Virus record (IMG/VR): IMGVR_UViG_3300020470_000065
Coordinates: 1 to 38,256 of that record
Length of the DNA: 38,256 nt
Reading direction: 5' to 3' (one strand)
DNA from: a virus
This document shows, piece by piece, positions 1 through 12,011 of the stretch (the first letter of the stretch is position 1; each line of letters starts with the position of its first letter). The translations under genes and the position numbers were made by a program. The notes under the pieces were generated by a model that did no database searches, was not told the DNA's origin, and worked only from the letters and a program-made list of their open reading frames with translations.

Positions 1-833
1 TCCGTTCCTACTTGAGTTGGTGATGATAAGGAAGTGGTATTATTGACTCCAGTAGCTCCTTGATCACCAAGTCCCCATGTCCACATGGTTCCGTCTTGTT
101 TAACTGCACCGCCAAGTCTCTCACCACCTGAACATGAGTGTGCTCCAAAAGCCCAGTTGGTGCCAGGAATTTGAACTGGTGAAGAGGTTGTAACATCAGG
201 CCCTATATTACGTGCTAAAGAACCATATTGACTTTGACCCCAACACCATAAGGTTCCATCAGTTTTAGTCCCCAACGCACCAGTACCACCACTACCAAAT
301 GAAACATGCCCCCAATTAGATTCAGTTCCAATCTGATTAGGTGATGAAAATCTTTGATCATTAGGTGAATTTAATCCTAAACGTCCATTTTTTCCTGTTC
401 CCCATGCCCATGCTGTACCATCAGTTTTAATTGCCATTACACCACCACCTTCATCATCAGGGCCACCAATGGAAGTGAAGTATTTCCAACTACCAGGTAA
501 TTGGACTGGTGATGATCTATCAGAGTTATTAGGCTGATGTATTCCTAAATTTCCATACTTATTACTTCCCCAACACCATCCACTATTATCAGTTTTTATA
601 CCAAATACAGCATTAGAAGTTGATCCCCCAAATACTTCCTTCCACTCTGTAGGGCCTCCTAACGCTACAGGAGAAGATCTTTTATAGTTTACAGGTTGAT
701 TAGCACCCCACTGACCTTCCCAACTGTGACCACAGTACCAAAATTTTCCACTAAATTTATACTCAACGTTTCCAGCAACATGTTGATCATACCACTCATC
801 TAATGACCATGTATTTTGTCTAAGTTCTGCCAT
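1..833 (-). CDS. RCC1-repeat tail-fibre protein, 3' end cut by window edge
   Basis: This open frame starts at the ATG at 833 and runs off the left edge without a stop (277 codons seen). It begins MAELRQNTWSLDEWYDQ and then shows RCC1-type repeats, each with an (R/S)SSPVQ(L/I)PG strand and a 'KTDGT-W-WG-N--G-LG' strand. Five SSP turns are visible. The two complete relatives in this window have seven, so about two blades are probably missing. RCC1 repeats fold as a seven-bladed beta-propeller, and in marine myoviruses such proteins are candidate distal tail-fibre or receptor-binding parts. The start overlaps the stop of the upstream glycosyltransferase gene as TAATG, so translation is probably coupled. 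The N-terminal W-x-L-D-E pattern recurs in both other RCC1 proteins and may be the attachment peptide. The fold is fairly sure; the role in receptor binding is inferred. Confidence 0.85.
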   Translation of the reverse strand, partial: MAELRQNTWSLDEWYDQHVAGNVEYKFSGKFWYCGHSWEGQWGANQPVNYKRSSPVALGGPTEWKEVFGGSTSNAVFGIKTDNSGWCWGSNKYGNLGIHQPNNSDRSSPVQLPGSWKYFTSIGGPDDEGGGVMAIKTDGTAWAWGTGKNGRLGLNSPNDQRFSSPNQIGTESNWGHVSFGSGGTGALGTKTDGTLWCWGQSQYGSLARNIGPDVTTSSPVQIPGTNWAFGAHSCSGGERLGGAVKQDGTMWTWGLGDQGATGVNNTTSLSSPTQVGT

Positions 834-1531
834 TATACTCTAGAGGATCCTTTGAACCTATTTATCCCTAAAATCTCCTCACATTTATCATAGAAGTAAA
901 CATTATATATTTGTTCACGAGCAGAAAATAAATGATAGAACATCTCCACACCCAAATGATTTGAATATGTAGTGCCGATACCCCATTCCCCACGACCTTT
1001 CCCCAGATCCCATATATCATTCTTAGGTCTACGTTGAAAATGAGTTGGTTGATACATCTCCACATCTATTCCTCTTTTCTCTGCTTCGTAAGTATAATAT
1101 CCACAACAATCAGCCTTGATATGATCTGGTTTCACTGTCATTCTTCCAAAGTCCTCATACATCTGACGAGTCAAACAAAATGCTGATGGTGCAACATAAT
1201 TGTGCTCATCATTATCCAAATGCATTCCTCTCTGCACATTACCAATCAACTTACCTTTCTCTGCTTGCTCAAAGGTATATTCAAGTGCATATGAATTTAA
1301 AGGAATACAATCAACATCTAATAAAAGAACTGTATCATACTTTCGTTCTACAAATAACTGATTAAAACCATAGTCAACTGCATCAGGGTGAATCACTTCT
1401 TCTCCATGCGTTTTGGAAAGTAATGGAATAAATTCTGCTGTTGTATTGAACTTCTTAACAACCTCTGCCTGAAGTCTTACGATATCAGGATCCAAAGAGA
1501 GATTATAGAATGTAAATATTGCTCTCTTCAT
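833..1531 (-). CDS. GT-A-type glycosyltransferase-like protein
   Basis: The protein has 232 residues from the ATG at 1531. A TTG start at 1543 would add four residues, but the ATG forms an ATGA overlap with the upstream stop and is preferred. It resembles nucleotide-diphospho-sugar transferases of the GT-A fold. It has an N-terminal beta-alpha start (MKRAIFTFYN), a DxD-type motif in VLLLDVDCIPLN (about residues 68-79, DVD at 72-74) that would bind the metal and sugar nucleotide, and a C-terminal histidine region GVEMFYHLFSAR (about 194-205). Donor and acceptor are unknown. The gene is the last enzyme of an overlapping cassette and is followed directly by an RCC1 fibre gene, so the fibre is the natural suggested acceptor. 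It could also modify host surface sugars or be inactive; the family call is moderately sure. Confidence 0.72.
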   Translation of the reverse strand: MKRAIFTFYNLSLDPDIVRLQAEVVKKFNTTAEFIPLLSKTHGEEVIHPDAVDYGFNQLFVERKYDTVLLLDVDCIPLNSYALEYTFEQAEKGKLIGNVQRGMHLDNDEHNYVAPSAFCLTRQMYEDFGRMTVKPDHIKADCCGYYTYEAEKRGIDVEMYQPTHFQRRPKNDIWDLGKGRGEWGIGTTYSNHLGVEMFYHLFSAREQIYNVYFYDKCEEILGINRFKGSSRV

Positions 1532-2226
1532 GCTATAACCCAAGCATTTGCAGCTACAGTATACCTTGGTTCTTCTAAAGGTAACTGTCTACTTCGATGA
1601 GATAACCAACCAGGAAATATGACCCATGTATTCTCAAGTGGTGCTATCTCTTGCATTCTTGTTGAAAATCCAGGTGGAATTCTAGGATCATGAAATTCTG
1701 TTCCTCCAGTCTCACCAGTCAACTTTTTTCCATTCTTAATAATTTCATAATTCCCCTCTTTACTAATAGTACGATCCTTCACTGCAGGATCGTGTAGATA
1801 ATATACACCAGATAAAAAAGAAGGATTATGATTATGCCAAGGTTGAGTTGTCTCTGATTCCAGATCTGCAGAATGCCAGGATTTATATCCCCATGCAGTA
1901 AAACCAGTAAAATTTAATGTATCTTGACCCTGACAAAAATTATCTACTTTATTCAAATAGTTTTCACATGCTATATAAAAACTATCCCTTAACTTTTTCC
2001 AAATAGGTGGAGCCTTATCTTCAAATAAAATACTATGAGTTTGATATTTCGGAGTGCTATTATTATCTGTCCATACTCCATTTGATATTAACAAATCAAT
2101 GCTCTCCATCATTTCTTTTTTATCCTCTAATGTAATCGAAGGACACCTAGATCTTATTAGGTAAGTAGGAAATAATTCATAACTTACGCACTCAGGAAAA
2201 AGTTTTTCATCAAAGTTTCTTTTCAT
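1528..2226 (-). CDS. 2OG-Fe(II) oxygenase-like protein, H-x-H type (paralogue of next gene)
   Basis: A 232-residue protein of the phage/marine-bacterial 2-oxoglutarate and iron dioxygenase type (resembles the 2OG-FeII_Oxy_5 group). The core reads PWHNHNPSFLSGVYYLHDP (His131 and His133), then GGTEFHDPR, then NTWVIFPGWLSHRS (distal His210), then EEPRY (Arg221, the expected 2OG-carboxylate contact). The first iron motif is H-x-H rather than the classic H-x-D; as I recall, that is usual in this group. It is a clear paralogue of the gene at 2223-2849, with which it shares most of the core, but it carries about 21 extra residues between YYLHDP and GGTEF (about 148-172). Its start overlaps the stop of that gene as ATGA. 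The substrate is unknown; hydroxylation of a fibre protein or of a sugar is plausible from the neighbours. Confidence 0.8.
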   Translation of the reverse strand: MKRNFDEKLFPECVSYELFPTYLIRSRCPSITLEDKKEMMESIDLLISNGVWTDNNSTPKYQTHSILFEDKAPPIWKKLRDSFYIACENYLNKVDNFCQGQDTLNFTGFTAWGYKSWHSADLESETTQPWHNHNPSFLSGVYYLHDPAVKDRTISKEGNYEIIKNGKKLTGETGGTEFHDPRIPPGFSTRMQEIAPLENTWVIFPGWLSHRSRQLPLEEPRYTVAANAWVIA

Positions 2227-2849
2227 GGTTTTTTCCAGTAGCCATCATTTACTTTTACATATAAATTACCTGAAATCACATATCTTGGTTCTTCTAAAGG
2301 TAATTGGCAGCTTCTATGAGCCAACCAACCAGGAAATATAATCCATGTATTCTCCATTGGCAACACCTCCTGCATTCGAGTTCCATGTGCTTCGGATTTT
2401 CTTGGATCATGAAACTCTGTTCCTCCAGTAGTTCCATCACCAGGATCATGGAGATAATATACACCAGATAGAAATGAAGGGTTATGATCGTGCCAAGGAT
2501 TGGCCTCTCCTTTATTTAATGACTCCCATCCTTTATATACCCATGCTCCTGACCCCGTGAATTCAAGTGCATCCTGATTCTGAATAAAACTATCTACTGT
2601 ATCAAGATAATTTTTACATGCCTGATAAAATTCCTTTCTTAACTTCAACCAAACAGGAGGTGCATCATCTCTGAATAACATCATATGAGTTTGATACTTA
2701 GGTGTCAATTCATTATCACTATACATCTTCTGCTCTATCATCCAGTCAGTGCAATCCATCATCTCTTGCTTGTCCTGTGGTGTAATGGAAGGACACTTAC
2801 TCCTTACTATATGAGTAGGGAATAAGTCATATGTCATAGTTTCTACCAT
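2223..2849 (-). CDS. 2OG-Fe(II) oxygenase-like protein, H-x-H type
   Basis: A 208-residue dioxygenase-like protein, the shorter member of a tandem pair with 1528-2226. The double-stranded beta-helix core is visible as PWHDHNPSFLSGVYYLHDP (His120, His122), GGTEFHDPR (about 142-150), NTWIIFPGWLAHRS (distal His178) and EEPRY (Arg189). The N-terminal part (YDLFPTHIVRSKCPSIT) matches the paralogue closely. The start lies inside the end of the TPR-glycosyltransferase gene (7-base overlap) and the stop overlaps the start of its paralogue. The family is known to hydroxylate or otherwise oxidise small molecules, peptides or sugars using 2-oxoglutarate and O2; which applies here cannot be read from the sequence. 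Confidence 0.8.
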   Translation of the reverse strand: MVETMTYDLFPTHIVRSKCPSITPQDKQEMMDCTDWMIEQKMYSDNELTPKYQTHMMLFRDDAPPVWLKLRKEFYQACKNYLDTVDSFIQNQDALEFTGSGAWVYKGWESLNKGEANPWHDHNPSFLSGVYYLHDPGDGTTGGTEFHDPRKSEAHGTRMQEVLPMENTWIIFPGWLAHRSCQLPLEEPRYVISGNLYVKVNDGYWKKP

Positions 2850-4147
2850 TCCCAGTTCTCCATAATTTCATATAGTTTATCTATGGTCTTATCCCAACTA
2901 TTATACTCCATTTGCTTCAATACTACAACATTATCAGGATACCATGTGATATCTTTTGTTTCCCATGTTATGTAACAACACATAGGAGGAAGAACAATAA
3001 CCTTTGCACCCATTGCACCAGCTAAATGAGCAACAGAGGTACATGAAGTTATAATTAAATCTGACTCTTCAAAGATATCATAGGTATCATTCCATGTTTT
3101 AATGCTCGGAGCAAGATCCCATACATTTGCATTCTTAGCTAAATCACTGTCTTCAAGTTGAATGGAAAATAACTGTCCGAACCTCTCAAGTCCTAATAAC
3201 TTTTCTATGGGTATACTTCTGAATTGCTCATGTTCAAACTGAGCACTTCCTTTCCATCGAATACATATTTTTTTTCTCTTACCTGCTATTACATTCATTT
3301 CTGACACAGATCTACTCTCTCTTTTAAGATAAGGAAAAGTTACTCCCTCACAAGGATCTTTTAATCCTAAGAAATAAGGAGCTGACATCGCAGGAACATA
3401 CTTATCCCATTTAGTCTTTACTATCTGTTCTGGTTCATACAAATTTTCATATCCACATTCATCTAACAAAGGTATTAAGTTCTTAGGAGAAAATATTTTT
3501 ACTTTTTTGCAAAGTTTTTTAAAATGTTCTACATAACGAACAAATATCATTCCATCACCCAATCCTCCTTCAAGATAAAAAGCAATGGTATCTACTTCAT
3601 CACCCAATTTCCAACGATATTCTTCACCTATATTATATTCCTTTCTCAATATCCACTCATGTCCCCATACTCTTAACTCATCTATAGCTCCTGTGCGAAT
3701 ATACTTATATCCCTGTTGAAACTTATCTTCTCCTAACAAATGCCACCCATAATTGAATGATGCTCTTACATTTGTATCTGCAATCGGTGCTAAAAGTTTT
3801 TTGGTTTCATTTAATTTACCCTGAGCTGTCATATACAAACCCAAGTCTACAATATAACCCTCATCATTCTTATATTTTTTAGGAAGAGATCGTAAGATTG
3901 CTTCTGCCTCTGGTGCTCTTTCTAAGTAATAAAGAATCTTAGCCTTATGAATAAGAACCTTCGGATTTGAAGTGACTTTTTCTATACAATCTAATGCTTT
4001 ACTATAATTCTTTTCTTCATGATGAATTCCTGCCAACAGAAACATGATATTTTCATTTTTTTCATTTCTTAAATATGCAATAGCAAGTTCTCTGGCAGCA
4101 GGTAACTCGTTAGCCTCAAAAAGTTCATTAATAAGTTGAGGAATCAT
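2843..4147 (-). CDS. TPR-repeat glycosyltransferase (GT9/GT41-like)
   Basis: A 434-residue fusion. Residues about 1-165 are helical pairs of tetratricopeptide type (for example ELPAARELAIAYLRNE, NYSKALDCIEKV, APEAEAILRSLP), usually a protein-binding scaffold. Residues about 180-434 look like a GT-B glycosyltransferase of the heptosyltransferase/O-GlcNAc-transferase kind. They contain EGGLGDGMIFVRYVEHF (about 193-209) at the start of the first Rossmann domain, RWKGSAQFEHEQFRSIP (about 297-313), and DLIITSCTSVAHLAGAMG (about 363-380), the usual nucleotide-sugar site. TPR-GT proteins of this type commonly glycosylate proteins, which fits a fibre-modifying role. It is translationally coupled: its ATG overlaps the stop of the upstream oxygenase gene (TAATG), and its end overlaps the next one. 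Sugar and acceptor are unknown. Confidence 0.8.
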   Translation of the reverse strand: MIPQLINELFEANELPAARELAIAYLRNEKNENIMFLLAGIHHEEKNYSKALDCIEKVTSNPKVLIHKAKILYYLERAPEAEAILRSLPKKYKNDEGYIVDLGLYMTAQGKLNETKKLLAPIADTNVRASFNYGWHLLGEDKFQQGYKYIRTGAIDELRVWGHEWILRKEYNIGEEYRWKLGDEVDTIAFYLEGGLGDGMIFVRYVEHFKKLCKKVKIFSPKNLIPLLDECGYENLYEPEQIVKTKWDKYVPAMSAPYFLGLKDPCEGVTFPYLKRESRSVSEMNVIAGKRKKICIRWKGSAQFEHEQFRSIPIEKLLGLERFGQLFSIQLEDSDLAKNANVWDLAPSIKTWNDTYDIFEESDLIITSCTSVAHLAGAMGAKVIVLPPMCCYITWETKDITWYPDNVVVLKQMEYNSWDKTIDKLYEIMENWEW

Positions 4148-4698
4148 TATTTTTTCAGTCCAATATTAGGTCTACCATCCAACCCTCTATCCTTATACTT
4201 ACCGTCTGCATCCACATAATGCATAAACACCTGATATTGTAAATTACCCTCAAATCTATCTCTCCAATGTTCTAGTTCCGTTCCATGATAGACCATCATA
4301 TCTCCTTCTTTAAGATCTACAGAATTATTATTACCATTATAATCCTTTATGGATATCGGCCATATGGAATCTCCACCTAATGATAAAGTCACTGAATATT
4401 CACACTCTGGACGGTCACTATGAATCTTAAGATCAGAACCATTCTTGTATATTCTTGCATAAGTATATGTTGGAATTAATTTTTTTCCAACCACTTCTTC
4501 TATATCAGGTCGTGACATAAACATCAACATATCAAAAGCAGGATCTCCGTAAATACAATGAGAATTAGGAGCTTGGTCATCACCCACAAATTTTTCATTA
4601 TCAACTCTTAGTGAAAAATAATTACGCAAATAATTAGAAAAAAAACTAGGAATATATTTTTCCCATTTTTCAAAACCCTGGTCTTGGAATTGTGTCAT
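4147..4698 (-). CDS. 2OG-Fe(II) oxygenase-like protein, H-x-D type
   Basis: A 183-residue single-domain dioxygenase. The iron triad is visible as KIHSDRPECEYSVTLSLGG (His93, Asp95) and MMVYHGTELEHWRDRF (distal His144), followed by Arg/Gln residues (R146, R148, Q154) where 2-oxoglutarate would be held. It is not closely similar to the three other oxygenases of the cassette. Its start lies 29 bases inside the preceding prolyl-hydroxylase-like gene and its stop overlaps the TPR-glycosyltransferase start. Similar small proteins are common in cyanomyovirus genomes. The substrate cannot be told from the sequence. Confidence 0.8.
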   Translation of the reverse strand: MTQFQDQGFEKWEKYIPSFFSNYLRNYFSLRVDNEKFVGDDQAPNSHCIYGDPAFDMLMFMSRPDIEEVVGKKLIPTYTYARIYKNGSDLKIHSDRPECEYSVTLSLGGDSIWPISIKDYNGNNNSVDLKEGDMMVYHGTELEHWRDRFEGNLQYQVFMHYVDADGKYKDRGLDGRPNIGLKK

Positions 4699-5311
4699 AA
4701 AGGTTTTTCTCCGTTTCTATCCAACTTACTAAACTATATCTATGTCCCCATGTAACTGGATGCACCTTATGTGCAAAATCTTTATATGATGGGAATGCTA
4801 TCATCATACCTTTTTTTGGTTTAATAGTCAACCCAAGATCAGGAAATTCTAGTTCTCCTCCACCATATTCTTCATTTAAATAAAACAGAAAGGAAATGTC
4901 TCGTGGCATACATTTTTCCCATTGACGAGTTTCATAATTAAAATGCTCACCGTCATTATGTTTCTTGTAATGACCACCTGGATTATATCCAAGAAATTGG
5001 GCAGGTTCATACTTCTTGAAAGTGCATTGATATCGGGGTTGAACATATCTAAAATAACACCCAGATATGGCCTGTTCAAGATGAACTCGAAGTTCATCAG
5101 ACTGAGGATACCAAAGTGTATCACGAACCTCTAAATCTTGTTTACCATCTGGATCATCATTAAGAATAGTAGCTTGTTGAGTATCTTGAGTATTAGTACA
5201 TTCCATTAGAAGATTTATATCTTCTTGAGGAACAACATTATTTCTAATGATAATCAAATCATGTAAATTAAATAACGTTATTGCTATTTTTTCATCTCTA
5301 AATGCTGCCAT
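4670..5311 (-). CDS. Prolyl-4-hydroxylase-like 2OG-Fe(II) oxygenase
   Basis: A 213-residue protein with a prolyl-4-hydroxylase catalytic core. It contains FLGYNPGGHYKKHNDGEHF with the H-x-D iron motif (His118, Asp120), RDISFLFYLNEEYGGGELEF, KPKKGMMIAFPS, and AHKVHPVTWGHRYSLVSW (distal His181, 2OG-binding Arg191). This is the closest to canonical P4H of the four oxygenases here. It is the first gene of the enzyme cassette, 20 bases after the end of an RCC1 fibre gene (5332-6621), and overlaps the next oxygenase gene by 29 bases. Family members hydroxylate proline or other residues in proteins; a tail-fibre substrate is inferred from position only. Confidence 0.87.
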   Translation of the reverse strand: MAAFRDEKIAITLFNLHDLIIIRNNVVPQEDINLLMECTNTQDTQQATILNDDPDGKQDLEVRDTLWYPQSDELRVHLEQAISGCYFRYVQPRYQCTFKKYEPAQFLGYNPGGHYKKHNDGEHFNYETRQWEKCMPRDISFLFYLNEEYGGGELEFPDLGLTIKPKKGMMIAFPSYKDFAHKVHPVTWGHRYSLVSWIETEKNLYDTIPRPGF

Positions 5312-5331: not shown

Positions 5332-6621
5332 TTATGTAGGTGCTTTTAAAGCCGCTTTGGTTTGTCTATCAAATGACTCACACCCTATCCATGAACCTGG
5401 AAGTTGAGTTGGTGATGACCGATACTGATTAGGCCCTCCTTCATTGTTTCCGAATTGACCCTTCTCATTCTTTCCCCATACCCACAAAGTATTATCAGTT
5501 TTGGTTGCTGCCGTACCATATAGACCACAACTGACCTGTTTCCAAGTGGTTCCTGGAATTTGAGTTGGAGATGATCTTCCCTCATTACTAGGATTACTAT
5601 TTTCATTAAGACCTAATTGACCATAATAATTACTACCCCACATCCATAATGTTCCATCTTGTTTAATGCAAGCCATGTGTTGATATCCACCAACGGCTGC
5701 TGCACCAGCAAAGGTACCCCAATCAGTGTCAGTTCCTATTTGAGCAGGTGATGAACGTTTTGAAGGTGCAGCGTTGAAACCATTAGCTCTTCCCCACATC
5801 CACAATGTTCCATCAGTTTTAGTCATGAGAGTCTCGCCATTACCCCCCACTTCACCTGCATCACTCCAAGTAGATTCAGTTCCTATTTGGACTGGTGATG
5901 AACGTCTATTATTCTCTCCTCCTACATTCTGTCCTAAACATCCACTACCATTATTTCCCCATGCCCATAGTGTACCATCAGTTTTGGTTGCCATACCACC
6001 ATAACTTCCAACCTTATAAGATCTATTCCAAGAACCAGGTATTTGAATTGGTGATGAATATCCGCTAGGATTATGTGGTTCTCCTTGTGTCTCATTGTTT
6101 CCTAATTGACCGTATTGAACAAGACCCCAACCCCACAGTGTATTATTTGTCTTAATCCCATGCACACATTGTTTAGTTCCCGATATCCGTGCCCAGCTAC
6201 CAGGTAGTTGAACTGGTGATGAACGAGCACTATTTTGAGGGCCTCTCATCTGAGTTCCACCTTTATTTTCTCCAACTCCCCACATTGTACCATCTTGCTT
6301 CACCATTAACATAGCAGTCTGCTCACCAAAGTAAGCAAAACCTGGTTCTGTTGATCCTAATGGGCCAGTAGCATGAGTAGCTGGAACTCCCCAATCAGTG
6401 CTCGTTCCTATTCTAACTGGAGAAGAGTGATCTTGACTCTTGTTATTGGGTAATGCTGCTGGATAAGGAGTATTGGGAGAGAAGGTACCCTGTTCCTGAA
6501 ATCCCCACATCCACAGTTGCTGTGGATCCGTGGCAGCATAAGACCAAATTCCACCTTGGTTTATTTTATTATAAACCTCATCGAGTTCCCAAACTCCTTC
6601 TTCTTTATCGGTTATAGCCAT
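5332..6621 (-). CDS. RCC1-repeat tail-fibre protein, seven blades
   Basis: A 429-residue protein. After an N-terminal segment with the shared GVWELDEVYNKI pattern come seven RCC1-type units, counted by seven SSP turns (for example RSSPVQLPGSW, YSSPIQIPGSW, RSSPTQIPGTTW). Each is followed by a KTDGTLW-WG-N strand. Seven units would close one beta-propeller. Trp, Gly, Asn and Ser are very frequent and there is no signal peptide or membrane segment. It is three bases downstream of the gene at 6625-7329 and directly upstream of the oxygenase/glycosyltransferase cassette. As a likely receptor-binding or fibre-tip component it is a candidate substrate for those enzymes. The fold is confident; the place in the virion is inferred. 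Confidence 0.87.
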   Translation of the reverse strand: MAITDKEEGVWELDEVYNKINQGGIWSYAATDPQQLWMWGFQEQGTFSPNTPYPAALPNNKSQDHSSPVRIGTSTDWGVPATHATGPLGSTEPGFAYFGEQTAMLMVKQDGTMWGVGENKGGTQMRGPQNSARSSPVQLPGSWARISGTKQCVHGIKTNNTLWGWGLVQYGQLGNNETQGEPHNPSGYSSPIQIPGSWNRSYKVGSYGGMATKTDGTLWAWGNNGSGCLGQNVGGENNRRSSPVQIGTESTWSDAGEVGGNGETLMTKTDGTLWMWGRANGFNAAPSKRSSPAQIGTDTDWGTFAGAAAVGGYQHMACIKQDGTLWMWGSNYYGQLGLNENSNPSNEGRSSPTQIPGTTWKQVSCGLYGTAATKTDNTLWVWGKNEKGQFGNNEGGPNQYRSSPTQLPGSWIGCESFDRQTKAALKAPT

Positions 6622-6624
6622 AAT

Positions 6625-7329
6625 TTACAAATACTGATAACGAGTTCTGATTGAACCAGGTTTATAATATCCCACATTTATATCTGAATATTCTGTACTA
6701 ATTCCTACAGTAGTAATTCCAATCTTTTCTTCACTGTGAATACCTACATACGATTCAAGTGCCTTTGTCACCGTAGAAGTATCAATACCTGCCATTATAC
6801 CATTTATTCTATCAGTTATTAACCCACGAAGTCCAGCAATCTTTGCTTCTTTCTCAATATATGCCTCATGATTAGTCTTAATCTTAGCCGCAAGAGTGCC
6901 TACAGTGCAATCACGATAAAATGCTTCTGTGGTTAATCCCGCATTTGGTGTTGCACTACTTATAAATGCAACAGCCGCATCATACTTATATCCTGATGCT
7001 GATGCATAAACACTATCAGCATAGTTCCCTAATTCCGATTCTCTCAAATCTCTCTCCTCTTTATATGCCTCCCCATCCCAATCTCTTACAAACTCTTGAA
7101 TTTTACCTGTAATATCACTTATCCACTCTGCATCACTAATTTCAAATATAAAATTACTAGCATCTACAGTAACACTATCATCTGCGGTTCCATAATAGAA
7201 TTGTCCCCAATCAAAAGTTGACTCTAATCCACTAAGAGTAGGATGTATAGCACCATTAGTTGCTGTAGCAATTATTTCGGATATACCAGTCACGGAATCG
7301 ACTTTTGCCCATTTAATATTTTTGGTCAT
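6625..7329 (-). CDS. Unknown protein, probable fibre accessory
   Basis: A 234-residue protein that I do not recognise. Residues about 1-75 look beta-rich (WAKVDSVTGISEIIATATNG, FDWGQFYYG). Residues about 85-190 are mostly helical and charged (GKIQEFVRDWDGEAYKEERD, KIKTNHEAYIEKEAKIAG). The C-terminus carries GITTVGISTEYSDINVGYY, recalling the GIGT-type strings of the large fibre proteins here. It lies between two RCC1 fibre genes and has its own late promoter-like box 38 bases upstream, so it is probably expressed late. It could be a fibre chaperone, connector or minor fibre protein; no function is assigned. Confidence 0.65.
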   Translation of the reverse strand: MTKNIKWAKVDSVTGISEIIATATNGAIHPTLSGLESTFDWGQFYYGTADDSVTVDASNFIFEISDAEWISDITGKIQEFVRDWDGEAYKEERDLRESELGNYADSVYASASGYKYDAAVAFISSATPNAGLTTEAFYRDCTVGTLAAKIKTNHEAYIEKEAKIAGLRGLITDRINGIMAGIDTSTVTKALESYVGIHSEEKIGITTVGISTEYSDINVGYYKPGSIRTRYQYL

Positions 7330-7411: not shown

Positions 7412-7437
7412 CTCTCTTATAAAGCTCTCTTATAAAG
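7412..7437 (-). repeat. 13-bp tandem direct duplication at the 3' end of an RCC1 gene
   Basis: Two perfect back-to-back copies of CTTTATAAGAGAG (7425-7437 and 7412-7424, read on the minus strand). The first copy codes LYKRA. The second is out of frame with the first (13 is not a multiple of 3) and brings in the TAA stop. Without the duplication the gene would end LYKRALD-stop, so it looks like a recent slippage event at the very end of the frame. Confidence 0.85.
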
Positions 7438-8547
7438 ACTTGTATTACCTTGTTGAAAACCATCAATCCACGTACCAGGTATTTGAATTGGTGATGAACG
7501 ATTTGTTGTACTATTTTGTCCTAAGTTTCCATTACCATTTTCTCCCCATGCCCATGCTGTTCCATCAGTTTTTGTAAAAGCCATGGCTCTGTCTGCACAA
7601 TTTACAGCTCCTACATTCCATGTCGTACCAGGAAGTTGTCTTGGAGAAGACTCGTCACCGTATTGATAATTGTGTCCAGTACAACCCTGTTCACCTTTTC
7701 CCCATGTATATAATTCTCCAGCAGTGTTAGTTGCCCAGATAGCAGGATCCTGCCCTGCTCTTCCTATATATTTCCAATTGGTATTAGTTCCTACTTGTCG
7801 AGGTGATGAATAATGTGTTAGATTACTCTGTCCTAATTGTCCATTATCATTTTTACCCCATGACCATAATGTTCCATCAGTTTTGGTAGCGAGAATCTGA
7901 TCTTTAGAACAACATACCTCACTCCATGTACCAGGAATTTGAAATGGTGATGAACGAGTATTTTTGTTTGGGCCATATCCACTCCATGCCCCAAATCCCC
8001 ATAGATACAACTCACCATTATCCTTAATACCTGCACTGTTATTATTACCACCACTTATCCTACTCCACGTACCAGGAACTTGTGTTGGTGATGAACGGAA
8101 GGTTGTATCATTCAAACCTAACGTAGCATACTGATTAATACCCCACATCCACAATGTTCCATCAGTTTTAATTGCTCCACAAAACTGTCTGGAGCAAGTA
8201 ATTTCCCCAAATCCCGATTTCCATGAACCTGGTATTTGAGTTGGTGAGGATCTATTATTATTACTAGGAAGATTAATTCCTAATTGACCATAAGAATTAC
8301 TACCCCATGTCCATAATGTATTATCAGCTCTAACTCCCATTGAATGAAATCCATTCGATTCCTCAAAAAGAACCACATTCCATTGACCAGGTAATTGTAT
8401 GGGTGATGAATGATCAGCGTTCTGATTTAAACCCGATGTTCCATTTGTCCCATTTCCAACTATGAATGCTTTATTATAATTGACCCATTCACTTTGCAGA
8501 TACTTATCTCGTACCTGCTGCAAATCCCAAACTCCAGATCGTGCCAT
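7417..8547 (-). CDS. RCC1-repeat tail-fibre protein, seven blades
   Basis: A 376-residue protein starting MARSGVWDLQQVRDKYLQ, the same W-x-L N-terminal pattern as the other two RCC1 genes. Seven RCC1-type units follow, marked by seven SSP turns (HSSPIQLPGQW, RSSPTQIPGSW, RSSPTQVPGTW, RSSPFQIPGTW, YSSPRQVGT, ESSPRQLPGTT, RSSPIQIPGTW), each with a DGTLW-WG-N strand. The number is right for a closed propeller. A strong Shine-Dalgarno AAGGAGG lies 9 bases before the ATG and overlaps the stop of the 1149-aa fibre gene, so the two are probably co-expressed. A 13-bp tandem duplication sits at the stop codon. Function as a tail-fibre or receptor-binding propeller is inferred. Confidence 0.87.
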   Translation of the reverse strand: MARSGVWDLQQVRDKYLQSEWVNYNKAFIVGNGTNGTSGLNQNADHSSPIQLPGQWNVVLFEESNGFHSMGVRADNTLWTWGSNSYGQLGINLPSNNNRSSPTQIPGSWKSGFGEITCSRQFCGAIKTDGTLWMWGINQYATLGLNDTTFRSSPTQVPGTWSRISGGNNNSAGIKDNGELYLWGFGAWSGYGPNKNTRSSPFQIPGTWSEVCCSKDQILATKTDGTLWSWGKNDNGQLGQSNLTHYSSPRQVGTNTNWKYIGRAGQDPAIWATNTAGELYTWGKGEQGCTGHNYQYGDESSPRQLPGTTWNVGAVNCADRAMAFTKTDGTAWAWGENGNGNLGQNSTTNRSSPIQIPGTWIDGFQQGNTSLYKRAL

Positions 8548-8556
8548 TAATTAATT

Positions 8557-8563
8557 CCTCCTT
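8557..8563 (-). promoter_or_regulatory. Strong Shine-Dalgarno site for RCC1 gene at 7417-8547
   Basis: The minus strand reads AAGGAGG, ending 9 bases before the ATG at 8547 and overlapping the TAA stop of the upstream fibre gene (8562-8564). It is one of the best ribosome sites in the window and fixes the start of the RCC1 gene. Confidence 0.75.
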
Positions 8564-11500
8564 ATGTAATTTGCTTACCAGATGCAGTGACCTCTAATCT
8601 ATCTGCTTGGTTGGCATATGCTCGAAGTTTATATCCCGACGCTAGATATTTAGGTTTCTGACATAATTCTACAGTTGAATCAGCAGGAACCACCATATCA
8701 TAACAGAGATATGATTGAACGTTGTTACTTCCATCTGTCCACACAACTCTTGCCTTCACATCATTGGTTCCATCATTGTTACAAAGAAGAATACTTTGAA
8801 CCACAGATGGATTAGAAGTAGAAGTATATAAATCAGTCATCGTAGCAGCAGAAGAAAGTGCAACTTGAGCATCCCATAAATCCGTATCCTCTTTATATTC
8901 TATAATAATCGTTGCTTCTAATGCTGAAGATGCACTTGCTTGAAGTTCAATTGTTTCACTTGGGCCAAGAACTTTAGGTTGATGAAGTAATTCAACTGCT
9001 GAGTTTCCAGGAACTGGTATGGTATGGGCAAAGGAGAAACTAGATTGCATTTCTCCACTAATCGTAACCTCAGAACCAGTAATATTAGCAATGTGAACTG
9101 AATGAACAATTGTTCTGTGAGAAGTACTAGCGTTAGCAGTGAACGCAGTTGCCATTGAAGTAGTAACATCATATTGAGTGGCACCACTAATACTCGTATT
9201 AAACTCACCAGATCCACCAGCAGCAATACCAGTTAGAGCACTACCATCACCACTGAAGGCAGTGGCAGTCATCAGACCAGTAGATGGATTATATGTCAAT
9301 CCACTATCGGTTTCAATTCCTTGAGAACCTGTAGTTCCATCTACAAATGTAGGATATACAGTTTCGTTAGTGGTGTTGTTTGCTGTAGCAGTTACATTAG
9401 TTGCGACGTTTGCTGTACCAGTACAAGATCCAGAAGAACCAGTACAGTTACCCGTTACGTTACCAGTGACATTACCTGTAAAGGATGTAGCCGATAGAAC
9501 ATTGGTTGAAGGATTATAAGTTATTCCTCCATCAACCCTCATGGTTTCACCAGCAGTGGTTGAGGAAGTATCCGCAAATACAAGATAATAAGTAGCATCA
9601 GTGCTGGTAGCAGTTATGTCCACAGTGTCTGCACTACCCGCATTACCAGTGGTGTTCTGGTTTAGAGTTGCAACTCTAGCTGCTGCAACAGTTCCCGAAG
9701 TTATATTTGAACCATTTATATCTGAAAGAGAAGAACCATCTCCACTAAAACCAGAAGCAACTAAAAGACCAGTACTAGAATTAAAGGTAAGATTGGATCC
9801 ACTCTTAACTGATAAATTTCCTGTTGCAGTATCAGCAAACAATACATTACATGTTGTATCACTTGATTCATCAGCAACAGTAACAGTTGTTGCAACAGTT
9901 GCAGTATCGGCATTACCCGTAACATCACCAGTAACATCACCAGTAAAGGATGTAGCCGATAGGACGTTGGTTGAAGGATTATATGTTATTCCCCCATCAA
10001 CCCTCATGGTCTCACCAGCAGTGGTTGAAGAAGTATCTGCAAATACAACATAGTAAGTAGCATCACTACTCGTAGCAGTAATATCAACTGTATCAGCACT
10101 TGCCGCATTACCAGTACAAGATCCAGAAGAACCCGTGCAGTTTCCAGTTACATTACCAGTGACATTACCAGTGAAAGATGTAGCCGATAGAACGTTGGTT
10201 GAAGGATTATATGTTATTCCTGCATCAACCCTCATGGTTTCACCAGCAGTCGTTGATGAGGTATCGGCGAAGACGACGTAATGAGTAGCATCGGTGCTGG
10301 TTGCGGTAATATCCACAGCGTCTGCTGTTGCAGCATTACCAGTACAAGATCCAGAGGAACCAGTACAGTTACCAGTGACATTACCTGTGAAACTTCCAGC
10401 TATACTTCCTGTTCCAGTGATGGTAGGAGATGTAAGAGTTTTATTAGTAAGAGTATCAGTTGTATCTCTACCGACCAGCGTGGTTGTAGATGCTGGTAGA
10501 GTTACTGTTGCGTTTCCTGAATAGGCAGAGTGTGCTGCTGCTTGTATTGCTGTGTAGTGAGCATTAGAAGATTCGCAATATAATCTAACTGCTGATTGAG
10601 ATCCATCGTTCTTCAGATCAATCAAACCAGTTGAAAGAGTGATTCTATCATTACCAGCAAATGCAATATCTATTTGATCATCTGTATCGGCAGTAATTGT
10701 TGTATCTGCATCAGCATCTAAAGTTAGAACACCACCATTTAGATCAACTGCTCCTGTGAATGAAGTAGCAGATAAAGCATTGGTTGAAGGGTTGATTCTG
10801 AATCCAGTATTAACTCTAACTGGATTATTACCACTACCAGCACCAAGAAAAGCTACATATTGAGATGCATCCGTAGAATCAGCATTGGTTCCTACCTTAC
10901 TTGCATTATCCACACTGGTGGTATTAGCGTTAATCCACGATAAAGTAGTACCAGTCGAAGATAAAATAGAAGCTGCTGTTCCCACTGATCCAGTTTGGTC
11001 AGCTATTGCAGTGATAGTCGCAATACCAGTAATATTAGCATTATTAGAAATCGTCGTAATACCAGTAATCTTAACATTATTAGTGATCGTAACTGCTGTT
11101 CCTGTAACAATATTATCTGTGGAAGCAACACCTGTTAAACCAGATCCATCACCAGTAAATTTACCTGCTGTAAGATTACCTGAATTAGGATTATATGTTA
11201 AACCTGTGTCAGACTCAGCACCTTGAGCTCCTGTTGCTCCGTCTACAAATATAGGATATACAGTTTCATCGGCACTATTATTTGCTGTAACCGTAAAAGT
11301 ATCAGTGTTACCCGTGACATCACCCGTGAGATCTCCCTCAAAGGTAGTGGCTGTTACAGTTCCTCCACTAAATGTAAACGTGGAAGCATCTTGTAATTCT
11401 CCACCAGTACCAACAGTTACAACTCTACCAGAAGTTAAATCTGAAACCTTAGCAGAAGCAAGAGTGGCAATACCAGTAATATTAAGATTTCTACCTCCTA

Positions 11501-12011
11501 TCTCATCATATGTAATATCTCCAACAACATTTAAATCTCCACCAACCGTCATTATACCAGCAATGGAAAGTCCACCGTGGGGTTGAATTGTTACACCAGA
11601 TCCAACTGTTATCGTACCAGTGCAAGTAGAAGGCCCTGATACAACTAAATTACCAACAGTTGAAACACCACTCGCATTACTTAAGAAATGAACATATGCT
11701 TCTGTGAGGATACCCGTTCTAATGGTTCCTATACCAGTAACACTTAAATCTTCAAATGATAATGCACCAGCAAGAGTTGATATACCCGTTACATTCAAGA
11801 AGTCACAAACCGCACTCGTTATTATACCTGTCGCAATCGTTGCTACACCACTTACCTGAATATCCGTACAAGCAATACCACCCTGAACATCGAGCAGCAT
11901 ACTAGGAATGGTACTAGCAATACCAACTCGGTTACTCGAAGGATCAGCAAAAATAAGATCGGTATTAACCTCTAAACCGTTCTTTACAACGAAATTCTTA
12001 TTTACAGCCAT
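8562..12011 (-). CDS. Large repeat-rich tail-fibre protein
   Basis: An 1149-residue fibre-type protein starting MAVNKNFVVKNGLEVNTDL, a start typical of large cyanomyovirus structural proteins. The N-terminal third is built of short beta repeats (VTGISTLAG, GVATIATGIITSA). The middle holds about 70-95-residue repeats with NCTGSSGSCTGNA, TVDITATSTDAT, VFADTSSTTAGETMRVD and GITYNPSTNVLSATSF, three nearly identical copies plus weaker ones. The C-terminal about 200 residues are non-repetitive (starting near GGSGEFNTSISGATQYDVTT) and end with EVTASGKQIT; they look like a globular tip or trimerisation domain. Cys pairs recur inside the repeats. A late promoter box and a GGGGGAG ribosome site precede it. 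Probably a trimeric fibre; receptor binding is inferred. Confidence 0.8.
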   Translation of the reverse strand: MAVNKNFVVKNGLEVNTDLIFADPSSNRVGIASTIPSMLLDVQGGIACTDIQVSGVATIATGIITSAVCDFLNVTGISTLAGALSFEDLSVTGIGTIRTGILTEAYVHFLSNASGVSTVGNLVVSGPSTCTGTITVGSGVTIQPHGGLSIAGIMTVGGDLNVVGDITYDEIGGRNLNITGIATLASAKVSDLTSGRVVTVGTGGELQDASTFTFSGGTVTATTFEGDLTGDVTGNTDTFTVTANNSADETVYPIFVDGATGAQGAESDTGLTYNPNSGNLTAGKFTGDGSGLTGVASTDNIVTGTAVTITNNVKITGITTISNNANITGIATITAIADQTGSVGTAASILSSTGTTLSWINANTTSVDNASKVGTNADSTDASQYVAFLGAGSGNNPVRVNTGFRINPSTNALSATSFTGAVDLNGGVLTLDADADTTITADTDDQIDIAFAGNDRITLSTGLIDLKNDGSQSAVRLYCESSNAHYTAIQAAAHSAYSGNATVTLPASTTTLVGRDTTDTLTNKTLTSPTITGTGSIAGSFTGNVTGNCTGSSGSCTGNAATADAVDITATSTDATHYVVFADTSSTTAGETMRVDAGITYNPSTNVLSATSFTGNVTGNVTGNCTGSSGSCTGNAASADTVDITATSSDATYYVVFADTSSTTAGETMRVDGGITYNPSTNVLSATSFTGDVTGDVTGNADTATVATTVTVADESSDTTCNVLFADTATGNLSVKSGSNLTFNSSTGLLVASGFSGDGSSLSDINGSNITSGTVAAARVATLNQNTTGNAGSADTVDITATSTDATYYLVFADTSSTTAGETMRVDGGITYNPSTNVLSATSFTGNVTGNVTGNCTGSSGSCTGTANVATNVTATANNTTNETVYPTFVDGTTGSQGIETDSGLTYNPSTGLMTATAFSGDGSALTGIAAGGSGEFNTSISGATQYDVTTSMATAFTANASTSHRTIVHSVHIANITGSEVTISGEMQSSFSFAHTIPVPGNSAVELLHQPKVLGPSETIELQASASSALEATIIIEYKEDTDLWDAQVALSSAATMTDLYTSTSNPSVVQSILLCNNDGTNDVKARVVWTDGSNNVQSYLCYDMVVPADSTVELCQKPKYLASGYKLRAYANQADRLEVTASGKQIT
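9420..10395 (-). repeat. Internal DNA/protein repeats in the 1149-aa fibre gene
   Basis: Three near-identical units lie at about 9420-9640, 9950-10160 and 10165-10395. They share the plus-strand strings 'accctcatggt(t/c)tcaccagcagt' and 'gatgtagccgatag(a/g)ac(a/g)ttgg'. They encode VDITATS(T/S)DAT, FADTSSTTAGETMRVD and ITYNPSTNVLSATSFTG. The high DNA identity, not only protein identity, points to recent duplication or gene conversion. Confidence 0.8.

Follow-up and report, generated by a model that had tools for sequence, protein, structure and literature searches.

The window, i.e., the whole stretch of 38,256 nucleotides analysed (IMG/VR record IMGVR_UViG_3300020470_000065), carried on its minus strand, reading from 5311 to 833, six overlapping enzyme ORFs with RCC1 propeller genes flanking both ends. 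The overlaps were 29 bp (P4H/HXD), 1 bp (HXD/TPR-GT), 7 bp (TPR-GT/HXH2), 4 bp (HXH2/HXH1) and 4 bp (HXH1/GT-A), and a TAATG joined the GT-A gene to the next RCC1 gene. This layout was confirmed as given in a preliminary description made from the sequence alone. The region sits between tail-fibre and baseplate genes, and no RNA families were found in the window. In the direction of transcription the features were:

8562..12011, minus strand: fibre-like protein (1149 aa) preceding the RCC1 genes (PHROG tail/baseplate matches; position kept in relatives)
7417..8547, minus strand: RCC1 propeller, putative fibre 1 (PF00415, 6.9e-38)
6625..7329, minus strand: 234-aa gene between two RCC1 genes (position conserved)
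5332..6621, minus strand: RCC1 propeller, putative fibre 2 (PF00415, 8.9e-21)
4670..5311, minus strand: P4H-like 2OG oxygenase (PF13640, 1.5e-17; HxD...H...R intact)
4147..4698, minus strand: H-x-D oxygenase, HXD (phrog_2954, 2.3e-49; PF13532 weak; conserved neighbour of P4H)
2843..4147, minus strand: predicted TPR plus GT-B-like glycosyltransferase, TPR-GT (TPR; predicted fold; RCC1 linkage)
2223..2849, minus strand: H-x-H oxygenase HXH2, the copy common to relatives (PF13759, 4e-10)
1528..2226, minus strand: H-x-H oxygenase HXH1, the tandem second copy (PF13759, 5.6e-10)
833..1531, minus strand: predicted GT-A glycosyltransferase with a DVD motif, ATG start at 1531 (predicted GT-A fold, pLDDT 90.8)
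1..833, minus strand: RCC1 propeller, putative fibre 3, truncated where the window ends (PF00415, 5.9e-18)

The order fibre-RCC1-hyp234-RCC1-P4H-HXD-TPR-GT-HXH-GT-A-RCC1 recurred in MH319737 and numerous further contigs; the isolated cyanophage S-SRM01 had the reduced order RCC1-DUF4376-RCC1-TPR-GT-HXH-GT-A at 22–26% identity. This conservation indicates that the arrangement is more than chance. The enzymes were 63–90% identical to those of close relatives, while the RCC1 proteins there were about 31–46% identical. The 234-aa protein, whose S-SRM01 counterpart (L015) matched DUF4376 (PF14301, 1.6e-5), may serve in fibre assembly or as an adaptor. The cassette had been described as ending at the RCC1 start; relatives show instead that the operon continues past 833 and beyond the window end, where the RCC1 gene is followed by a sulfotransferase, GT25, two further PF13759 oxygenases and GT2. 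Four 2OG oxygenase ORFs had been counted and are present in the window, but HXH1 (61% identical to the neighbouring HXH2) was seen in this window only; relatives with the cassette never had more than one H-x-H oxygenase here, and HXH2 was present in them at 63–85% identity. The conserved cassette is P4H, HXD, TPR-GT, HXH and GT-A, with three 2OG oxygenases.

The three RCC1 propellers matched PF00415 at 65.6, 74.7 and 129.4 bits (cut-off 21.7). Putative fibre 1 has the N-terminal anchor GVWDLQQVRD and blades containing SSPxQ[IVL]PG[ST]W. RCC1 N-termini were conserved by position and the propeller part diverged; with the anchor as query, only MH319737 was found. These conserved anchors and the position beside fibre and baseplate genes suggest that the RCC1 proteins are virion tail fibres. 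The genome paper of S-SRM01 contains neither virion proteomics nor a discussion of RCC1, and literature pairing “RCC1” with phage concerned algal strain codes or unrelated matter.

The oxygenase family calls held for most of the genes. The P4H-like protein matched PF13640 at 64.8 bits, and HXH1 and HXH2 matched PF13759 at 40.0 and 40.4 bits (cut-off 27 in each case), placing all three in the 2OG-Fe(II) oxygenase superfamily. The P4H metal ligands and 2OG-binding residue (H118, D120, H181, R191) were invariant in the alignment. Among 2OG enzymes with solved structures, its profile came closest to prolyl 4-hydroxylases: the best match was 5c5t (1.7e-10), the viral collagen-type prolyl 4-hydroxylase of PBCV-1, followed by other (bacterial and human) P4Hs at about 2e-8 and PiuC at 2.2e-6. 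HXD fell below the curated Pfam cut-off for a 2OG domain (PF13532, 19 bits vs. 31.2; E 0.0017), and its PDB sequence search returned nothing beyond chance. Its sole strong match was phrog_2954, and its HxD...H residues were invariant in five relatives. The PHROG/GenBank name ferrochelatase was rejected for HXD, which had no PDB match and showed the HxD...H pattern instead.

The two glycosyltransferase calls, originally made without sequence support, are now backed by confident predicted folds. GT-A had no Pfam match and only chance-level matches in a PDB sequence search; its predicted fold matched GT-A enzymes, among others the GT domains of LH3 and COLGALT1, and D72 and D74 were invariant, which indicates a GT-A fold with a DxD motif. 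The TPR-GT model (pLDDT 93.9) showed TPR helices followed by a GT-B fold, the same succession as in OGT (GT41) and SPINDLY, which together with bacterial TibC were the nearest solved structures, all of them protein glycosyltransferases. TM-scores against whole OGT chains were low (0.3–0.4), and Pfam and PDB sequence searches returned TPR only, without a GT41 or other glycosyltransferase match. The predicted fold suggests that TPR-GT works like a GT41 enzyme; it is not filed as GT41 because of this lack of a match at the sequence level. Within the GT domain, GGxGD, K293, E305/H306, SCTSxAH and W395 showed little or no variation across 42 sequences with 27% mean identity.

A survey for co-occurrence of the enzymes with RCC1 had been proposed in the preliminary description, and it separated TPR-GT from the other genes. 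When similarity to TPR-GT was the sole search criterion, reaching down to about 25% identity, 45 of the 50 clusters found had RCC1 within 5 kb, mostly no more than 100 bp away, as did 26 of the 27 TPR-GT clusters with 5 kb known on both sides. Over all loci, RCC1 was in the locus for 56 of 60 TPR-GT clusters and within 500 bp for 34. Reverse retrieval with RCC1 alone found TPR-GT in 36 of 46 loci with at least 3 kb downstream, and the two genes were at most 103 bp apart in 48 of 54. TPR-GT is thus a near-exclusive partner of RCC1 propellers in many unrelated phages. In contrast, the distant relatives of P4H, HXD and GT-A, which served as controls, never had RCC1 nearby (0/36, 0/22 and 0/17). 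Homologues away from fibre genes had been named as evidence against the cassette's link to fibres; such relatives without RCC1 exist for HXD, HXH and GT-A, and one HXD relative was located in a replication region. SSP was considered as the TPR-GT acceptor site and rejected, being equally common in RCC1 proteins without TPR-GT; no acceptor site was identified in RCC1 proteins.

Across 80 distinct TPR-GT/RCC1 loci, the Pro-Gly fraction of RCC1 blades was 0.31–1.0 at the 14 loci with a cassette-type P4H and 0–0.20 at the 66 loci lacking one. Pro-Gly ranked first of 400 dipeptides for P4H presence (AUC 1.000) and was not enriched in non-RCC1 proteins (0.285 vs. 0.258 per 100 aa). At four loci without HXD, Pro-Gly tracked P4H. 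On the TPR-GT tree there were three changes each of P4H and Pro-Gly, all concordant, and Pro-Gly was reduced in both within-clade P4H losses; at the L019/L098 change the remaining RCC1 genes were of the second-array type. With only three independent changes (sign test p = 0.25), hitch-hiking with the lineage could still account for the pattern. Among 20 further Pro-Gly-rich contigs, five reached TPR-GT and all five carried P4H. Pro-Gly-rich RCC1 genes without P4H were considered as counterexamples; all but one proved to be second RCC1 arrays or to lie on contigs cut before the cassette. L632, from another phage (31 kb), has a Pro-Gly-rich RCC1 and neither P4H nor TPR-GT, and ends 1 kb past the RCC1 gene. 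A PVQIPGT pattern search in bacterial genomes returned mostly unrelated proteins and one RCC1 contig (L536), which carries P4H, HXD and TPR-GT.

These observations lead us to favor, with moderate confidence, the reading that this marine T4-like phage has a locus for fibre modification within its host-recognition region, where RCC1 fibres would undergo both glycosylation by TPR-GT and hydroxylation by P4H. TPR-GT would be a dedicated transferase whose TPR part recognizes RCC1 propellers, and glycosylation would occur inside the infected cell, ahead of tail assembly or as it proceeds. For the P4H-like enzyme, the proposed activity is hydroxylation of the proline in the [IV]-Pro-Gly-[ST]-Trp turn recurring in RCC1 blades. 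X-Pro-Gly is the target sequence of collagen P4H (PMC9676403); here the proposed target would lie in a turn of a beta-propeller rather than in a collagen helix. The two modifications would be separable, glycosylation being widespread and hydroxylation an addition in the window's clade. The glycan is probably lengthened or capped by GT-A together with the sulfotransferase, GT25 and GT2 encoded further along, and other residues are probably hydroxylated by HXD and HXH. The original proposal that the phage enzymes modify the RCC1 fibres is thus strengthened by two independent genomic lines, linkage for TPR-GT and RCC1-specific covariation for P4H; for HXD, HXH and GT-A, which probably act on the same substrate, the evidence is gene order.

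Three other readings were weighed. It is rather unlikely, in our estimate, that TPR-GT alone modifies the fibres and the oxygenases act elsewhere (on small molecules, nucleic acids or other tail proteins), Pro-Gly being a structural variant that marks a clade. The oxygenase families do occur without RCC1 and in other contexts in isolates, published interpretations of cyanophage 2OG genes invoke nitrogen metabolism or DNA repair (PMC3037559), and the independent changes are few. Against this reading, Pro-Gly tops all dipeptides, is confined to RCC1, follows P4H and not HXD, and falls in both P4H losses, and prolyl 4-hydroxylases are the closest solved structures to the P4H profile. Somewhat less likely still is modification of the host surface, in which the enzymes alter the O-chain or surface polysaccharide, e.g., excluding other phages, and the gene site is a hypervariable host-recognition island. 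In the pelagimyophage host recognition cluster, tail fibres are mixed with glycosyltransferases in a variable island of the structural region, and host O-chain modification was proposed (PMC7029224, which does not describe an RCC1/TPR-GT link or prolyl hydroxylation). The position between tail-fibre and baseplate genes, and the GT25, GT2 and sulfotransferase families common in glycan synthesis, agree with this. Left unexplained are the tie of TPR-GT to RCC1 in distant phages whose other enzymes differ and the covariation of fibre Pro-Gly with P4H, and a peptide-binding TPR part would be needless in a lipid- or polysaccharide-directed glycosyltransferase. A non-catalytic fibre chaperone on a glycosyltransferase fold would fit the immediate adjacency of TPR-GT to the fibre gene, as fibre chaperones often show, but the near-invariant GT-domain residues make it extremely improbable.

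The analogy to collagen or Skp1 modification drawn at the outset, in which the oxygenase-added fibre hydroxyl is the attachment site of the first sugar, is very unlikely in its strict form. Hydroxylases and glycosyltransferases do share an operon, the predicted GT-A fold is similar to GT domains such as those of LH3 and COLGALT1, and a GT25 gene lies downstream in relatives; but the majority of TPR-GT/RCC1 loci lack P4H and have almost no blade Pro-Gly, so TPR-GT does not need that hydroxyl group, and GT25 accompanies TPR-GT also where P4H is absent. The strict scheme could still hold for GT-A alone in the window's clade.

Phage-encoded glycosylation of a phage's own virion proteins is known from mycobacteriophages, at the C-termini of capsid and tail tube proteins (Freeman et al., 2023, as cited in PMC12619734); in the window the proposed substrates are instead RCC1 fibres, with TPR-GT and hydroxylases. 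Cyanophages and pelagiphages (HTVC008M, S-SCSM1, S-PM2) carry 2OG-Fe(II) oxygenases of the same families (PMC3037559), frequently as runs of several genes close to those for the baseplate or tail fibres, and in those stretches no RCC1 fibre or TPR-GT is annotated beside them. The role of these many oxygenases has been a question since at least 2010. The substrate-level prediction, the [IV]PG proline of RCC1 blades, allows a direct peptide test of one of them. Should it prove true, it would be the first case known to us of a phage-encoded enzyme hydroxylating a virion protein.

The phage probably decorates its own host-recognition fibres, which may alter host binding or protect the exposed fibres. 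We rate as evenly balanced the broader view of a dedicated two-layer system for the receptor-binding propellers of tailed phages of sea and lake, with OGT-like glycosylation of RCC1 and, in one clade, P4H acting on a Pro-Gly turn in every blade, which would place a constant surface mark, made by enzymes, on fast-evolving fibres. If the reading is true, TPR-GT and RCC1 would together form a module for fibre glycosylation that is widely distributed and matters for host recognition, and annotations of “LPS-modifying” glycosyltransferases in phage islands would change.

The viral record from IMG/VR comprised 38,256 bases. Its minus strand carried baseplate hub, tail tube, baseplate and tail-fibre genes upstream of the cassette region, then a 1149-aa fibre-like gene and the following genes:

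7417-8547, minus strand, RCC1 propeller gene (proposed tail fibre)
6625-7329, minus strand, 234-aa gene (hyp234)
5332-6621, minus strand, RCC1 gene
4670-5311, minus strand, prolyl 4-hydroxylase-like gene (P4H)
4147-4698, minus strand, H-x-D oxygenase-like gene (HXD)
2843-4147, minus strand, putative glycosyltransferase TPR-GT
2223-2849, minus strand, H-x-H oxygenase gene (HXH), the copy common to relatives
1528-2226, minus strand, second HXH copy
833-1531, minus strand, putative glycosyltransferase GT-A
1-833, minus strand, RCC1 gene, incomplete and interrupted by the window end

The coding strand changed at approximately 35200: the tail genes lay on the minus strand, and the plus strand carried those for head closure, the DNA end protector, the tail tube cap and the baseplate wedge. 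The start/stop overlaps reported among the enzyme genes were borne out, including TAATG at 835-831. The preliminary description had counted four 2OG oxygenases; Pfam identified P4H and both H-x-H proteins as such, while the H-x-D protein gave a weak 2OG match and a strong one to phrog_2954. Both H-x-H genes were present, but relatives carried a single HXH, the second copy being a local duplicate (61% identical to its neighbour). This copy also had an insert following VYYLHDP that was absent from relatives. Neither glycosyltransferase had a Pfam glycosyltransferase match.

The order fibre, RCC1, hyp234, RCC1, P4H, HXD, TPR-GT, HXH, GT-A, RCC1 recurred in IMG/VR relatives and in the single-cell record MH319737. 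Relatives' contigs were fragments, and each collection scan covered the best 80 loci. In close relatives the enzymes were 63-90% identical to those of the window and the RCC1 proteins only about 31-46%. The N-terminal anchor was particular to each of the three RCC1 genes (GVWDLQxVRD; GVWxLDxxYxK; NTWxLxxxYD) and was retained where the propeller varied, which suggests three separate docking places on the virion. Past the window end, the relatives' operon continued with a second enzyme cassette (13867-20727 in L006; same region in L012, L010 and L007) containing a sulfotransferase, GT25, two PF13759 oxygenases, GT2, a TPR-GT-like protein and DUF6445, among others. Further along, three to six or more long RCC1 genes stood in tandem as a second array (L332, L348, L353, L391, L406, L392); they encoded proteins of about 400-970 aa with an N-terminal extension and followed a gene for about 260-290 aa on the minus strand. 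The isolated cyanophage S-SRM01 carried RCC1, DUF4376, RCC1, TPR-GT, HXH, GT-A and, further on, RCC1 and sulfotransferase (22-26% identity); in BUCT-ZZ01, TPR-GT immediately followed RCC1.

Among the matches listed, 45 of 50 distinct clusters retrieved by TPR-GT similarity alone had an RCC1 gene within 5 kb, as did 26 of the 27 with 5 kb known on both flanks. Across all loci, RCC1 was present for 56/60 TPR-GT clusters (within 500 bp in 34); the other four had a short flank on the side where relatives carry RCC1. Retrieval by RCC1 alone gave, among the matches listed, 46 distinct new loci with at least 3 kb downstream, of which 36 had a TPR-GT; in 48/54 cases the two genes were at most 103 bp apart. 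Distant relatives of the other enzymes, retrieved in the same way, had no RCC1 within 5 kb (P4H 0/36, HXD 0/22, GT-A 0/17). By gene neighbourhood, TPR-GT belongs with the putative RCC1 fibres. Its AlphaFold model was confident (pLDDT 93.9), and the nearest solved structures, XcOGT, SPINDLY, human OGT and the autotransporter glycosyltransferase TibC, all glycosylate proteins. Because global TM-scores were low (0.3-0.4), the model supports the architecture and a likeness to these enzymes, and not GT41 membership. Some TPR-GT relatives were extended at the C-terminus (L016 16063-17787; many of 560-670 aa); in BUCT-ZZ01 the extension weakly matched a methyltransferase (PF08241, 0.007).

P4H covaried with the RCC1 blade sequence, which read SSPVQ-IPGTW in loci with P4H vs SSPVQ-IGTSSW in loci without. 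Among 80 distinct loci with a sequenced RCC1/TPR-GT junction, the fraction of Pro-Gly in the blades was 0.31-1.0 in 14/14 loci with P4H and 0-0.20 in 66/66 without. Pro-Gly ranked top of all 400 dipeptides in separating these groups (AUC 1.000); next in rank came Ile-Pro and Val-Pro, parts of the same motif. Non-RCC1 ORFs of the same loci showed no such rise (0.285 vs 0.258 per 100 aa). Four loci with P4H and without HXD kept Pro-Gly at 0.43-0.59, so Pro-Gly tracks P4H, not HXD. On the TPR-GT tree, three changes in P4H and three in Pro-Gly fell at the same positions: once at the clade base, once at L025 and once at L098/L019, the latter two by loss of the P4H-HXD block. With only three events, a sign test could not reach significance (p = 0.25). 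Other contigs rich in Pro-Gly were obtained independently, through RCC1 or a DNA pattern for PVQIPGT. P4H was present in 5/5 of those that extended to TPR-GT; those without P4H ended before it or represented the second RCC1 array, with one possible exception, L632. This different phage (L632 / L720 8336-10201) had Pro-Gly in 6/7 blades of an RCC1 protein and neither P4H nor TPR-GT on a 31-kb contig ending 1 kb past the RCC1 gene. Large genomes lacking P4H had only remote 2OG relatives elsewhere (at most 64 bits), and BUCT-ZZ01 and one 165-kb record had none. The P4H profile best matched the solved prolyl 4-hydroxylase 5c5t (1.7e-10), the PBCV-1 viral enzyme, with PiuC behind (2.2e-6). Viral P4H is known from algal viruses. 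X-Pro-Gly is the classical target sequence of collagen P4H (PMC9676403).

Gene order alone places HXD and HXH in the putative fibre-modification system. In isolates of cyanophages and pelagiphages, such oxygenase genes were often lined up close to those for the baseplate or short tail fibres, but the HXD relative of Syn30 sat among replication genes. Adjacent HXD and P4H-like genes occurred without RCC1 or TPR-GT (L248-L251, L293, L295, L305); the pair thus exists independently of these. The label ‘ferrochelatase’, given to phrog_2954 in PHROGs and many GenBank records, had no visible support for the H-x-D family (phrog_2954, phrog_3531). One end of phrog_3531 (362 aa) matched the H-x-D family and the other the P4H-like protein, which suggests natural fusions of the pair. 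Ten residues past the distal His (H144 to Q154 in the window), five HXD relatives had an invariant Gln where many 2OG enzymes have Arg; the 2OG anchor may lie elsewhere in the protein. GT-A had a predicted GT-A fold (pLDDT 90.8), with nearest structures including chondroitin synthase, LH3, C1GalT1, COLGALT1 and mimivirus R699.

Phage virion glycosylation is already known from mycobacteriophages, as cited in PMC12619734. Glycosyltransferases in pelagimyophage host-recognition clusters were interpreted as O-chain modification (PMC7029224), and roles in nitrogen metabolism or DNA repair were ascribed to cyanophage 2OG enzymes (PMC3037559). The limited literature searched contained no earlier account of TPR-GT pairing with RCC1 or of P4H covarying with Pro-Gly. 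Most likely, TPR-GT would glycosylate the putative RCC1 fibres and, in the clade of the window, P4H would hydroxylate the proline of the blade [IV]PG. The suggestion that hydroxylation creates the site for the sugar was not upheld for TPR-GT: this gene mostly paired with RCC1 in the absence of P4H, so the sugar would be independent of the [IV]PG-proline hydroxyl. GT-A and downstream enzymes would lengthen the glycan, and candidate roles of the fibre modification include receptor binding, fibre stability and shielding.
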